Made by a program: the position numbers and the translations under genes. A stretch of 49,084 nucleotides of DNA. Origin: Frankiaceae bacterium (GTDB lineage Bacteria; Actinomycetota; Actinomycetes; BP-191). The notes under the pieces are model-generated. The model worked only from the letters and a program-made list of their open reading frames with translations, did not search any database and was not told where the DNA came from. Shown here piece after piece: positions 35,113-44,110 of this stretch (the stretch's first letter is position 1; every line of letters starts with the position of its first letter). The stretch is from positions 71,577 to 120,660 of the forward strand of contig DATMES010000022.1 of the NCBI GenBank assembly GCA_035556555.1, read 5' to 3'.

Positions 35113-35312
35113 CGTAACGCCTAATCCTGCCCCGCGGCCGCAGGCGCCCGTCGATATCCACCTCGATGGGGCAGGAGCGGGGGACCCACAGGTCCGTCGG
35201 CTCGCACGTACGAAGCGAGCCTTGGGGTGAAGCCGGGACGCACGTCCCCGGCCGGGCAGCCTTCCAGCCCGAACCCGACAGCTGACCTCGCCGGCGTGTG
35301 GGAAGGGATCTG
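35113..35312 (+). promoter_or_regulatory. c-di-AMP riboswitch (ydaO/yuaA class) in the leader of the second NlpC/P60 gene
   Basis: The 5' leader shows the conserved pieces of this class in order: GGGGCAGGAGCGGGGGACCCA, GGGGTGAAGCCGGGACGCAC, CGGCCGGGCAGCCTTCCAG, GAACCCGACAGCTGACC and a terminal GGCGT...GGAAGGGA region near the SD. In actinomycetes this riboswitch controls cell-wall hydrolase genes and shuts expression off when c-di-AMP is high. The boundaries are approximate, as the P1 partners were not folded by computer. Confidence 0.85.
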
Positions 35313-35319
35313 TCTCCGC

Positions 35320-36096
35320 ATGCCCCTGAACTTCCCCCGGCACCGCCGTGCCCGCGTCCGGACGGGTGCGGCCGTCGCCGCCGCCGGCCTGGCGTTCTCC
35401 GGGCTCGTCATCGCGGCCCCCAAGGCCGTCGCCGCCGAGCCCACCCCGACCAGGATCACGGTGTCGCCCGCGCGCGCCAGCAAGGCCGTCGGCACGGGCG
35501 TGACGTTCACGTTCACGCTCTCCACCAGCACCCGCACCGTCGGCGGGCACACCGTCGCGATCTACACCCGGCCCGCCGGCGTCATGCAGTGGACCAAGCG
35601 CTGGACGCACACGCTGAACAGCAACGGCCAGACCCGGGCCGCGTTCACGGTGCAGCGCTCGACGTACATCCAGGCGCGCTTCGCCGGCACCTCGCGGTAC
35701 GCCCCGTCGGTCAGCTCGTCCGGCTTCGTCCAGGCGCTCGACTCGCTGGGCCAGCGCGTGATCCAGGAGGCCGCGACGCACCGCGGCAAGCCGTACCAGT
35801 GGGGCGCCACCGGGCCGAGCCGCTTCGACTGCTCGGGCTTCACGCTCTACGTCTACAAGCAGTTCGGGAAGACGCTGCCGCGCACGTCGCGCGACCAGTA
35901 CCGCGCGCTGCGCCACGTCTCGAAGTCGGAGAAGCGGGTCGGCGACCTGATCTTCACCTACAACTCGAGCGGCACGATCTACCACGTCGCGATCTACGCC
36001 GGCAACGGCGAGATCTGGCACTCGCCGCGCTCGGGCGACGTCGTCAAGCGTTCGCCGATCTGGTCGAACAGCTACTACGTGGGCCGCGTGGCGTAG
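35320..36096 (+). CDS. Secreted NlpC/P60 endopeptidase under riboswitch control
   Basis: The product has 258 residues. ATG 35320 follows GGAAGGGA; the open frame upstream is riboswitch RNA. A signal peptide with RR (FPRHRRARVRTGAAVAAAGLAFSGLVIAAPKAVAA) precedes an Ig-like beta domain (about 45-135; TRITVSPARASKAVGTGVTFTFTL). The NlpC/P60 domain has Cys in SRFDCSGFTLYVY, His in YHVAIYAG and the WHSPRSGDVV segment. Substrates are peptidoglycan stem peptides. Being riboswitch-controlled, it links wall loosening to c-di-AMP and osmotic state. Confidence 0.92.
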   Translation: MPLNFPRHRRARVRTGAAVAAAGLAFSGLVIAAPKAVAAEPTPTRITVSPARASKAVGTGVTFTFTLSTSTRTVGGHTVAIYTRPAGVMQWTKRWTHTLNSNGQTRAAFTVQRSTYIQARFAGTSRYAPSVSSSGFVQALDSLGQRVIQEAATHRGKPYQWGATGPSRFDCSGFTLYVYKQFGKTLPRTSRDQYRALRHVSKSEKRVGDLIFTYNSSGTIYHVAIYAGNGEIWHSPRSGDVVKRSPIWSNSYYVGRVA

Positions 36097-39373: not shown

Positions 39374-40081
39374 CTAGCGGTCCGGGTCGAGCGCCTCGAC
39401 GCCGACCAGGCGGTAGCCGGCGCCGACCTCCGTGAGGAGGTGGACGGGGTTGGCGGGCTCGGCCTCGATGATCCGGCGCAGGTGGCTCACGTACAGCCGC
39501 AACGAGCTCGCCTCGCTGCCGTGCGACGACCCCCACACCGCGTTGATGAGGTGGTGCCGGGTGAGCAGCTTGCCCGGGTTGGCGAGGAACGCGTCGAGCA
39601 GCGCCCACTCGGTCGCGGTGAGCCGGACGCGGTCGCCGTCGCGCGTGACGGTGCGCGTGGCGAGGTCCACGACGGCGCGGCCCGCCCGCACGAGCGGCGG
39701 TGACGGCGCGGCAGCGGTCTCGGCGCGGCGCAGCAGCGCCCGCAGCCGCGCGAGCAGCTCGTCGAGGCTGAACGGCTTGGTGACGTAGTCGTCCGCGCCG
39801 ACGTCGAGGGCGGCGACCTTGTCGGCGTCCCTGTCGAGCGCGGAGAGGATGAGCACGGGCGCGGCCGAGAACGCGCGCAGGCGCCGTACGACCTCAGGCC
39901 CCTGGATGCCGGGCAGGCCCATGTCGAGGACGACGAGGTCCGGCGCCGCGGTCGCCGCGACCTCCAGAGCGGTCTCCCCGTCGGCCGCGCCGAGGACGGC
40001 GTACCCCTCGCTGGTCAGCCTCGACGTCAGCGCGGAGAGGATGTGCCGTTCGTCGTCTACGACGAGGATCGTCGGGCTCAT
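39374..40081 (-). CDS. kdpE: KdpE-like OmpR-family response regulator
   Basis: The product has 235 residues. The receiver domain (acidic pocket VVDDE, phospho-acceptor Asp53 in VVLDMGLPG, Lys102 in VTKPFS) is joined to an OmpR-type winged helix (VRLTATEWALLDAFLANPGKLLTRHHLINAVWG..LRLYVSHLRRIIE..GAGYRL). It overlaps the kinase gene stop by 4 nt. KdpE proteins activate high-affinity K+ uptake; no kdpFABC is in the window, so the divergent K+ permease is the likely target. Confidence 0.88.
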   Translation of the reverse strand: MSPTILVVDDERHILSALTSRLTSEGYAVLGAADGETALEVAATAAPDLVVLDMGLPGIQGPEVVRRLRAFSAAPVLILSALDRDADKVAALDVGADDYVTKPFSLDELLARLRALLRRAETAAAPSPPLVRAGRAVVDLATRTVTRDGDRVRLTATEWALLDAFLANPGKLLTRHHLINAVWGSSHGSEASSLRLYVSHLRRIIEAEPANPVHLLTEVGAGYRLVGVEALDPDR

Positions 40082-41508
40082 CCCGCCTCCACGGCCGGCA
40101 GGCGCAGGTCGAACGCCGTCCCCGACGGCACGGGCACGAGGTCCAGCTCGGCGGAGTTGGCGTTGGCGTACGCCCGCGCGATGGCGAGCCCGAGCCCGGA
40201 CCCGCTGGCCGACGTGCCGCCGCGGAAGAACCGCTCGAAGACGGCGTCCGCGTCGGCCGGCGCGATGCCCGGCCCTTCGTCGGCGACCCGGACGGTGACG
40301 TACGCCCCGTCGGCGCGCGCGGTCACGGCGAGACCGGCGCCGGGCGGGGTGTGGACGAGGGTGTTCTCGACGAGGTTCCCGAGGACCTGGTCGATCTGCG
40401 TGGGGTCCACGAGTACGGCGGGCAGGTCGTCGGGCACGCTGACGTCGAGCCTGCGCTCGCCGAGACGCGGGCGGATGCGCGTGAGGACCACGCCGACGAG
40501 CTCGTCCACGGGCACGACCTCGCGGTCGGCGGCGAGGACACCGCCCTCGATGCGGCCGAGGTCGAGCAGGTTGCGGACCATGCGGTCGAGACGGTCTCCC
40601 TCGACCACGATCGAGCGGGCGAGCGCGCCTCGTGCGGCGGCGGGGAGCAACGCGTCGTCCAGCGCGCCCGCGGCGGTCGTCATCGCGGCGAGCGGCGTAC
40701 GCAGGTCGTGCGACACCGCCGCGAGCAGCGCCGAGCGCTGCTTGTCGGTCTCCTGGAGCACCTCGACGTGCCGGCGCTGCCGCTGCTGCTCGACCCGGTC
40801 GGCGGCCGCGACGCTCAGCGCCGCGATCGCGTCGAGCAGCGCGCGCTGGCGGCCGTCCACGTCGTGCCCCGGCGCCGCGAACGCCACCAGCACCAGCTCG
40901 CCGCCCGCCGCGAGCGGGCGCGCGGCCAGCGCCGTGCCTCTGCCCGGGGCATCGATCCCCGTACGCAGCGCCGCCTCGTCGCGCGCCCGAAGCACCTCCA
41001 GCGCGCCGTCGCGGCGTACGGCGACGGCGACGTGCGCGAGCCCGAGCCGTTCCTCGGCGCCCGCGGCGAGCGCCGGGAGGTCACCGCCGCTCGGCTCGGC
41101 GATCGTCACGCTGAGGTCGTAGAGCAGGCGGGTGTCGGCGGCCTCTCGTTCGGCGTCGGCGCGGCGGCGCTCGACCGACGCGAGCATCGCGGACACGACG
41201 AGCGCGGTGACGAGGAACCCGCCGAGCACGCCGGCGTCGGCGCGCGCGCTCACCGTCAGGGACCCGAGCGGCTCGATGAACCAGAAGTTGAACAGCAGGA
41301 ACGCCGCGAGGCTCGCGATCGCGCCGGGCCCGACGCCGCCGACCGCCGCGGCTGCGAGCACGACGAGCAGGTAGGCGAACGCCACGTTCGTCGCGTGCGC
41401 GGGGCCGGCGACCCGCAGCAGGGCGGCCGTGAGCAGCGGCGGGCCGAGGACCGCGACGACCCACCCGGCGGCGCGACGGCGCGCGAGTCTCACGTCCCCA
41501 TAGTCCAT
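40078..41508 (-). CDS. KdpD-like sensor histidine kinase lacking the N-terminal KdpD/USP domains
   Basis: The product has 476 residues from ATG 41508. Four closely spaced helices (VAVLGPPLLTAALLRVAG.., NVAFAYLLVVLAAAAVGGVGPG, FLLFNFWFIEPLGSLTVS, VLGGFLVTALVVSAML) form the DUF4118 module of KdpD. A GAF-like region (about 130-250) precedes HisKA (AAVSHDLRTPLAAM) and HATPase_c (NLVENTLVHTPPGAG, VADEGPGI, GSGLGLAIARAYA). The canonical N-terminal sensor of about 400 residues, including the USP domain, is absent. Longer upstream frames run into the promoter region and lack coding character. Confidence 0.9.
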   Translation of the reverse strand: MDYGDVRLARRRAAGWVVAVLGPPLLTAALLRVAGPAHATNVAFAYLLVVLAAAAVGGVGPGAIASLAAFLLFNFWFIEPLGSLTVSARADAGVLGGFLVTALVVSAMLASVERRRADAEREAADTRLLYDLSVTIAEPSGGDLPALAAGAEERLGLAHVAVAVRRDGALEVLRARDEAALRTGIDAPGRGTALAARPLAAGGELVLVAFAAPGHDVDGRQRALLDAIAALSVAAADRVEQQRQRRHVEVLQETDKQRSALLAAVSHDLRTPLAAMTTAAGALDDALLPAAARGALARSIVVEGDRLDRMVRNLLDLGRIEGGVLAADREVVPVDELVGVVLTRIRPRLGERRLDVSVPDDLPAVLVDPTQIDQVLGNLVENTLVHTPPGAGLAVTARADGAYVTVRVADEGPGIAPADADAVFERFFRGGTSASGSGLGLAIARAYANANSAELDLVPVPSGTAFDLRLPAVEAG

Positions 41509-41551
41509 CGTCGGCGCAGCGTGGCGCACGGCGGCCCCGGTACCCTCGACG

Positions 41552-41600
41552 TTTGCGGACTCTTTGCGCGGCCCCCCGCGATCTTTGCGGGGGCTCTGCG
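41552..41600. promoter_or_regulatory. Helically phased TTTGCG direct repeats between kdpD-like gene and permease
   Basis: TTTGCG occurs at 41552, 41563 and 41584, with a variant TCTGCG at 41595. The spacings of 11, 21 and 11 bp are one or two helix turns; the missing phase is occupied by CCCGCG at 41575. OmpR-family regulators bind such direct repeats, so this is the best KdpE operator candidate in the divergent promoter. Confidence 0.55.
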
Positions 41601-41622
41601 CGGGGCGGCGCAGCATCGGGAA

Positions 41623-43602
41623 GTGACCGACCTGCTGACGCCGAGGCCGCGGACTAGCCTCGCGAAGCGCCTGCTCGTGGGGCGCCCGATCCACACCGAG
41701 GACGCCGGGCACACGCTGCTGCCCAAGCGCCTGGCGCTACCGGTGTTCTCGAGCGACCCGCTGTCGTCGGTGGCGTACGCCACCCAGGAGATCCTGCTCG
41801 TGCTCGGCCTCGCGGGGCTGGCGTACCTGCACCTGACGCCGTACCTCGCGGCCGGCGTCGTGCTGCTCCTGACCGTGGTGACGATCTCGTACCGCCAGAC
41901 CGTCCGCGAGTACCCGAGCGGCGGCGGGGCTTACATCGTCGCCCACGAGAACCTCGGGGCGCCCGCCGGGCTGGTCGCCGCCAGCGCGCTGCTCATCGAC
42001 TACGTCCTCACGGTCGCGGTCTCCGTCGCGGCCGGCGTCGATGCCATCTCGTCGGCGTACGAGCCCGCCGCGGAGCACAAGGTCGCGCTCGCCATCGGCT
42101 TCGTCGTGTTCATCACGCTGATGAACCTGCGCGGGGTGAAGGAGTCGGGGACGCTGTTCGCGATCCCGACGTACGGCTTCGTCGTCGGCATCTACGCCCT
42201 CATCGGCTGGGCGCTCGTCCGGCTCGCCGGCGGCGCGACCCTCGTGGCAGAAAGCGCGACATGGGAGGTCCACTCCGAGCACACCTTCGCGGGCGCCGCG
42301 GTCGTGCTCCTGCTGCTGCGCGCATTCTCCTCGGGCTGCACGGCACTCACCGGGGTCGAGGCGATCTCCAACGGCGTACCTGCCTTCCGCCCGCCCAAGT
42401 CGAGGAACGCGGCGACGACGCTGATGGTGATGGCGTTCTTCTCGATCTCGATGTTCATCGGGATCACCGTGCTCGCGCTGGTCGCCGACGTGCACGTCGC
42501 CGAGCACGCGCGCGACGTGATCCTGCCGAACGGCCTGCCGCTGGCCGAGACGGCGACGTACGCGCCGCAGAAGACCGTTGTGGCGCAGATCGCGGCCGCG
42601 GTTTTCGGCGGGGGGTCGTTCGGCTTCTACTACGTGCAGGCGTTCACCGCCGGCATCCTCATCCTCGCCGCGAACACGGCGTACCAGGACTTCCCGCGGC
42701 TCACGTCGATCCTGTCGCACGACAACTACCTGCCGCGCCAGCTCGCCAACCGCGGCGACCGGCTCGTCTTCAGCAACGGCGTCTTCCTGCTGGCCGGCTT
42801 CTCGTGCCTGCTGATCTGGGTCTTCGACGCCGAGGTCACGCGGCTGATCCAGCTCTACATCGTGGGTGTCTTCGTGTCGTTCACCCTCAGCCAGGCGGGC
42901 ATGGTCGTCCACTGGCGGCGCAAGGAGCCTGACGCCCTCCCGAGCGAACGCGGCACCATCGCGCGCGGCAAGGCGATCAACGCGTTCGGCGCGTGCTTCA
43001 CGTTCGCCGTGCTGTGCATCGTGCTGTACAGCAAGTTCTCGCACGGCGCGTACCTCGTGGTACTCGCGATGCCGGTGATCTACCTGCTCATGCGGACGAT
43101 TCACGGCCACTACCGCACCGTCGCCGACGAGATCCGCGTCGAGACCGTGCGGGCGGTGCTGCCCTCGCGCAACCACGCGGTCGTTCTCGTGTCGTCGCTG
43201 TCCGTCCCCACCGTGCGGGCGCTCGACTACGCGCGCTCCATCCGGCCGCACACGCTCCAGGCCGTGTCGGTCGCCGTGGACCCCGACGCCGCAGAACGGC
43301 TCGTCGAGGTCTGGGCGCGAAACCGCATCGACATCCCGCTCGTCAGCGTCGCCTCGCCGTACCGCTCCCTGCACCAGCCGCTGCTCGAGTACGTCCGGCG
43401 GCTGCGCGGCGGCAACGAGAACGACGTCGTCACCGTCGTCATTCCGGAGTTCGTCGTGACGCGGTGGTGGGAGCAGCTGCTCCACGGCCAGAGCGCCCTG
43501 CTGCTCAAGCTCGCGCTGCTCCGCGAGCCCGGGGTCGTCGTCACGAACGTCCCCTGGCACCTCCGCGGCCGCCGCGCTAGGCGGGGTCGGGCTTCTTCTT
43601 GA
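41623..43602 (+). CDS. KimA-like APC superfamily permease (probable K+ importer)
   Basis: The product has 659 residues from GTG 41623; the open frame upstream is the shadow of kdpD. It has twelve hydrophobic segments. Marks of this APC branch are [84 protein letters not shown], and a cytosolic C-terminal domain of about 180 residues. KimA of B. subtilis, a c-di-AMP-inhibited K+/H+ symporter, has the same design, and many actinobacterial homologues sit beside KdpDE. K+ as substrate is inference from family and context; annotation pipelines often say amino acid permease. Confidence 0.85.
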
Positions 43603-44110
43603 CGCGGGGCGGGACGGTCCACAGCCACGACGCGGCTGCCGCGACGGCGTACGGCCCGAGCACCTGCCAGCGCAGGGAGAACGGCGTCTCCGCGGCGTAC
43701 GGCGACTGGAAGCCGACCGCCACCCCGAGCACCGAGTAGAACGCCGCCAGGTAGCGCAGCGCGCGCCCCCGCCGCTTGCCGGCGGCGAACTCCGCGGCCA
43801 TCGACACGACGATCCCGACGAACCCGGGCACGACCCAGCCGACGAAGCCCGCGCCGACGTACTCCGACGCCACGAGACCCGTGAAGATCGCGACGACGTC
43901 GGCGAGCGCCGCCGCCGCGACGAGCGAGCGCAGGTCGAGCGGCGGTGGCCCCTTCTTGCCGCGCGCGCCCTGGCAGGCGAGGCAGCCGCCGCCCGGCGCG
44001 GCGTCCGCGTCGGCGGCGCAGCGGGCCCGGTCGCAGACGGGGCAGCGGTCGTACGCGGGCAGCGACGGGTGGACGGCGCAGCGCAGCGCGGCGTCGTCGG
44101 GGGTGCCCAC
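43577..44110 (-). CDS. Small membrane protein with N-terminal zinc-binding B-box-like motif
   Basis: The product has 177 residues. The N-terminal Cys/His cluster ([30 protein letters not shown]) suits a small zinc ribbon. Three or four hydrophobic segments follow ([68 protein letters not shown]). The function is unknown; the zinc motif resembles those of rhomboid-type and DUF membrane proteins in actinomycetes. It overlaps the permease 3' end by 26 nt (convergent). Confidence 0.75.

Follow-up and report, generated by a model that had tools for sequence, protein, structure and literature searches.

Here, we describe a kinase-regulator pair, a divergent permease gene and the promoter region between them in a 49,084-nt stretch (the window) from the genome of a Frankiaceae bacterium. 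The pair encodes a short KdpD-type histidine kinase and a KdpE-type response regulator, the frame of the regulator overlapping the stop codon of the kinase by ATGA, and the permease is a homologue of the K+/H+ symporter KimA (Table 1). The single intergenic region that separates them carries four half-sites in the spacing of the E. coli kdpFABC promoter. In textbooks, the KdpDE two-component system serves one main target, the KdpFABC pump. At this locus, it is highly probable that a KdpE-type regulator drives the KimA symporter in place of that pump, and that the genes form a K+-starvation module.

Table 1. Genes and promoter elements of the locus (positions in the window; distances are from the kimA start).
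Feature	Position	Strand	Details
KdpE-type response regulator	39374..40081	-	235 aa; Response_reg and Trans_reg_C (Pfam)
Short KdpD-type histidine kinase	40078..41508	-	ATG 41508, 476 aa; DUF4118, HisKA, HATPase_c (Pfam)
Half-site 1, TTTGCG	41552..41557	+	-71
Half-site 2, TTTGCG	41563..41568	+	-60
Half-site 3, TTTGCG	41584..41589	+	-39
Half-site 4, TCTGCG (one mismatch)	41595..41600	+	-28
Probable -10, CAGCAT	41611..41616	+	Inferred by alignment; TAGCGT at the matching place in congener G002
kimA homologue, K+/H+ symporter family	41623..43602	+	GTG 41623, 659 aa; phmmer against 6s3k, E=4e-121

Gene products of the locus

The kinase aligns with residues 450-880 of E. coli KdpD and nothing precedes its DUF4118 domain; Pfam searches of the protein found neither PF02702, the N-terminal domain of KdpD, nor a Usp match. 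As PF02702 is missing, the protein is named KdpD-type and not KdpD. The reduced domain set given in the preliminary description is thus borne out, but the start of the kinase had to be corrected (Table 1). A longer kinase from an upstream GTG of the open frame was ruled out, since it would cross the operator and no KdpD or Usp domain lies there. Pfam gave no GAF match in the kinase; GAF_3 was matched in one of 21 related kinases, kdpFABC-linked ones included, and the region aligns with KdpD. An orthologue search among named genomes returned one true kinase orthologue, that of Frankiaceae BP_191. Neither KdpA nor PF02702 had a match anywhere in the genome (3.98 Mb, completeness 99.91%), so that the proposed absence of kdpFABC holds genome-wide and the regulator is not tied to this operon.

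The regulator is of the OmpR type with KdpE (NF007820) as its best NCBIfam model, in line with its first assignment, and the DNA-contact residues R193, R200 and T215 of E. coli KdpE are all conserved. Its recognition helix reads SSLRLYVSHLRR or SALRLYVSHLRR in the present genus only, and most others have (N/H)YLRVYxAQLRR. The half-site in the present genus is TTTGCG instead of TTGACG. Recognition helix and half-site differ together, and appear to have changed jointly in this genus.

For the permease, KimA of B. subtilis (6s3k) is the only match with a solved structure, and the alignment spans 635 residues (14-648). All ten K+/H+-path residues tested are identical (D36, Y43, D117, Y118, T121, S125, T230, E233, N237 and Y377). 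Among the c-di-AMP contacts, R337, V457, V506, H579, Q581 and S582 are identical, and L461, P479 and N580 are changed (roles of both residue sets from PMC6994465 and PMC10284832). This agrees with the earlier reading of the divergent gene as a KimA-like permease, and the conserved K+- and H+-coupling residues support a K+-uptake module. The start of kimA is now set at GTG 41623, and its transcript is probably leaderless.

The window has one Rfam match, a c-di-AMP riboswitch (RF00379, 64 bits, 35149-35311, +) just 5' of the frame of a secreted NlpC/P60-like hydrolase that ends at 36096. Its presence is a sign that the organism uses c-di-AMP; as it precedes another gene, a c-di-AMP riboswitch on kimA was ruled out. 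The genome encodes a second KimA (contig C46, L031 6225-8108; 63% identity to the window KimA), which is divergent from a TrkA-like NAD-binding gene and is without KdpE-type repeats. At its 3' end, the window kimA overlaps by 26 bp with a convergent open reading frame (43577-44110, -), whose product has a cysteine-rich N-terminus followed by hydrophobic stretches and fits no family above cut-off (Pfam, NCBIfam).

Operator repeats and kdpFABC promoters

The half-sites lie at offsets 0/11/32/43 bp, approximately one, three and four helical turns apart from the first, with the -10-like hexamer at 59 and the start codon at 71. The phasing with the helix noticed in the preliminary description is confirmed, whereas of its four TTTGCG units the last is imperfect (Table 1). 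TTTGCG occurs five times on both strands of the window, and three of these copies fall within 38 bp of one strand. A genome-wide scan for TTTGCG-N5-TTTGCG that allowed one mismatch found the kimA promoter only (two matches) and no further targets; the reversed control gives four, elsewhere. Among 394 actinomycete genomes, the 38-bp pattern is found exactly only here and in the congener G001, and with at most two mismatches in the congener G002.

At the E. coli kdpFABC promoter, TTTATA, TTTACA, TTTGCG and TTTGCA stand exactly at 0/11/32/43 and TACCCT at 59. The pattern scores 23/24 there (runner-up 18 in 9.5 kb) and likewise 23/24 at the window kimA promoter (runner-up 16 in 49 kb). E. coli KdpE binds the first pair, between -72 and -50 (PMC3264566). 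The kimA promoter has the kdp-type layout in full, i.e. TTxRCR direct repeats with an 11-bp period, in two pairs 32 bp apart and 5' of the -10. Related repeats are also present at actinomycete pump genes: TT[TGA][AG]CG-N5-[CT]T[TGA][AG]CG was found 16 times in the 37.5 kb 5' of 25 actinomycete kdpA genes, whereas the 73.7 kb of these loci that begin at kdpA hold a single copy. Several of the 5' repeats form two pairs 32 bp apart, and all are on the strand opposite kdpA. The 22-bp site footprinted for M. smegmatis KdpE belongs to this type (PMC5401905). Since the geometry is common to E. coli and actinomycete kdp promoters, we ruled out an operator of a private kind, different from other KdpE sites. 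The description of the repeats as a KdpE-type operator is therefore upheld by the E. coli spacing and by these related repeats; the kimA and actinomycete kdp promoters share one half-site family, which at kimA has the E. coli orientation.

A looser TTKRCR repeat has six matches in the genome, against two for the reversed control. One of them, on contig C2 (L190 2034-2061), consists of three TTGACG half-sites with an 11-bp period. It precedes a gene with a TAGCGT -10 and a near-leaderless ATG and adjoins a gene for a LuxR-type regulator. The flanking genes have no evident K+ link, and sites of this kind may be recognized by another regulator as well. In two other genomes (G193 and G365), many TTTGCG(A/C)CGGGTCGGC units stand 32 bp apart, with 33 pattern matches in G365; they resemble a family of intergenic repeats with no relation to KdpE.

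Pairing of KimA with short kinases in actinomycetes

A DUF4118 kinase lies within 1 kb of a KimA gene in 24 of 148 actinomycete genomes (approximately one in six), in divergent arrangement in 14 and in tandem in 10. In the 20 paired loci that were fetched, the N-terminal KdpD part was found in none (tblastn with E. coli KdpD as query), and a KdpE-like regulator adjoins the kinase in 16, the other four reaching a contig end. Before the loci were scored, half-sites had been defined on the window, E. coli and kdpFABC promoters. A direct repeat matching at least 11/12 was then found in the 250 bp 5' of KimA for 19 of 22 paired KimA genes, versus 1 of 26 unpaired ones; shuffled sequences reach this score in about 3% of cases. 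In the divergent paired loci, the half-site score peaks at offsets 0, 11, 32 and 43. Moreover, TANNNT-N6/7-[AG]TG starts exactly 70 bp after half-site 1 in 9 of the 10 other divergent loci scored, one helical turn above the spacing of the present genus and of E. coli, which points to leaderless kimA transcripts.

Of the genomes with strong DUF4118 hits, KdpA is present in 7 of the 24 paired ones, versus 63 of 69 unpaired (Fisher p=1e-8; weak DUF4118 hits were left out and genome relatedness was not corrected for). Over all 148 genomes, pairing against KdpA gives p=0.05. Among the unpaired KimA genes, a KdpE-type repeat, TTAACGCAATCCTTGCG, was found at one alone (L014, G039:C19), about 132 bp 5' of the gene. 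With a DUF4118 kinase about 5 kb away and kdpA at a distance of 9.5 kb, this KimA may belong to the ordinary KdpE regulon there. KimA, kdpA and a short kinase with its regulator all occur in another locus (L178, G108:C103:1-7000), which might represent a transition between the kdpFABC-linked and KimA-linked forms.

A search for TTTGCG arrays at the same gene pair in relatives had been suggested, and the array is indeed kept in both congeners. In G001 the half-sites, their offsets and the distance to the start are kept and the spacers have diverged. In G002 a gapless alignment shows all offsets unchanged, with one half-site degenerate (GCTGCG), TAGCGT at 59 and an ATG at 71; a short frame starts at this ATG, about 110 bases ahead of the permease frame. 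As the G002 kinase is split over the ends of two contigs, the layout there is inferred. The KimA behind the G002 promoter shares only 43% identity with the window KimA. In the KimA tree, the window gene groups with its G001 orthologue, and this pair and the other KimA of the genus stem from a within-genus duplication (100% support); the G002 promoter faces a separate KimA clade. The regulators of the three congeners form one clade, and so do the kinases. In the simplest reading of these trees, the promoter and the two-component system stayed and the adjoining permease was exchanged. The claim of a switched target fits well with this promoter, whose orthologous kinase and regulator face different KimA clades, with the missing kdpFABC and with a pairing that tracks the absence of KdpA. 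Gain or loss of the pairing has occurred several times: given the well-supported branches of the kinase tree, the KimA-paired label must have changed at least four times (the regulator tree requires two changes). The G001 genome contains kdpFABC and a full-length KdpD as well; its kdpF and second KimA carry repeats of the TTGACG/TTTACG type, apart from the TTTGCG type.

Interpretation and relation to known systems

Control of KimA by the KdpE-type regulator is strongly favoured because the operator is unique in the genome, its spacing is common to two congeners and E. coli kdpFABC, and repeats are concentrated at paired loci. Furthermore, KdpA and PF02702 are absent, pairing tracks the absence of KdpA, the K+ residues are conserved, and helix and half-site co-differ. 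In such a module, the membrane kinase keeps the part of KdpD that is thought to sense K+, namely the membrane and linker region with the histidine-kinase core. Low K+ would activate the kinase and lead to phosphorylation of the regulator. Two regulator dimers may then occupy the two 11-bp-phased direct repeats (-71/-60 and -39/-28), of which the lower stands at the position of a -35 element, and the promoter would be activated. The GTG, or a position close to it, is the probable start of the kimA transcript; KimA would be made and import K+ together with protons, and may itself then be subject to c-di-AMP control. The N-terminal domain of KdpD is a serine kinase acting on the pump subunit KdpB (PMC11018627). 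A joint loss of pump and domain is therefore coherent, and suggests that the serine-kinase half was lost when its substrate was lost.

Several points weigh against this reading. The -10 CAGCAT is weak, and the repeats are reversed, relative to kimA, in the actinomycete kdpFABC promoters examined. The regulator (213 bits) scores below the NCBIfam KdpE cut-off of 325, as do two kdpFABC-linked KdpEs from other actinomycetes (252 and 265 bits). The genus is represented by three genomes, and binding, expression and transport are read from sequence. The intergenic region is common to kimA and the kinase gene, and the repeats may therefore serve the kinase side too. Indeed, they could be an autoregulatory site of the kinase-regulator operon, with KimA a mere divergent neighbour: divergent promoters are often autoregulated, and read towards the kinase the motif is CGCAAA, which is its orientation at kdpFABC in the actinomycetes examined. 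However, the 10 tandem loci carry the repeat 5' of KimA and not between KimA and kinase, the distances to -10 and start are fixed on the KimA side (59/71 in the genus, 70 in most other divergent loci), and no clear -10 is seen on the kinase side, which makes autoregulation improbable. It is still less likely that the permease carries another substrate of the APC superfamily and that the module is not about K+. Pfam gives AA_permease_2 only and no NCBIfam model fits, yet KimA is the sole solved-structure relative, its ten tested residues are identical, and the permease is paired with a KdpD/KdpE-type system. That the repeats arose by chance or composition and bind nothing can practically be dismissed: one of the four has a mismatch and the surroundings are very GC-rich, but the pattern is confined to the kimA promoter, its spacing is kept in the congeners and in E. 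coli, and it is enriched at paired loci.

Overall, regulation of KimA by the kinase-regulator pair remains the preferred reading, and the preliminary description is supported with the caveats that one repeat is imperfect and that the pairing is not special to the present genome. With less assurance, we lean towards a wider scenario in which actinomycetes repeatedly built a Kdp substitute: short KdpD-type kinases and KdpE-type regulators, with a four-half-site layout like that of E. coli kdpFABC, would have captured different KimA paralogues, and in the present genus a joint drift of regulator and operator would have led to a TTTGCG code of their own. Our search of the open literature (subscription papers were outside it) turned up no account of an actinomycete KimA under the control of KdpE. 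If true, a recurrent KimA-wired KdpDE would explain the role of such kinases in pump-free genomes, the actinomycete KimA would gain a regulator, and the annotation "DUF4118 kinase" would become a testable K+-response function. The matched changes in recognition helix and half-site would offer a test case for regulator-DNA co-evolution.

B. subtilis KimA is alike over 635 residues, in all tested K+/H+ residues and in most c-di-AMP contacts; its expression and activity are under c-di-AMP control, and PMC6994465 and PMC10284832 describe no two-component system alongside it. In split KdpD variants, the histidine-kinase half of KdpD is likewise a protein of its own (TM/GAF/DHpCA), but the species described have the Kdp pump, and KdpD/Usp as a second protein, neither of which is present here (PMC11018627). 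That survey sampled only species with an annotated pump, and pump-free genomes such as the present one would fall outside it. M. smegmatis KdpDE shares the actinomycete KdpE-type direct repeat with an 11-bp period, which is reversed there (CGTAAA-N5-CATCAA) and lies 5' of kdpFABC, and its KdpD is full-length (PMC5401905). The likeness to E. coli KdpD/KdpE and the kdpFABC promoter (PMC3264566) comprises a homologous regulator and kinase core, the 0/11/32/43 layout with the -10 at 59, and the same orientation; the E. coli promoter itself contains TTTGCG-N5-TTTGCA. Unlike in E. coli, the kinase is without serine-kinase and Usp domains, all half-sites are TTTGCG-like, the transcript is probably leaderless and the target is kimA. 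If this holds, a promoter layout has outlived the gene it served, the same half-site spacing now standing at E. coli kdpFABC and at the window kimA.

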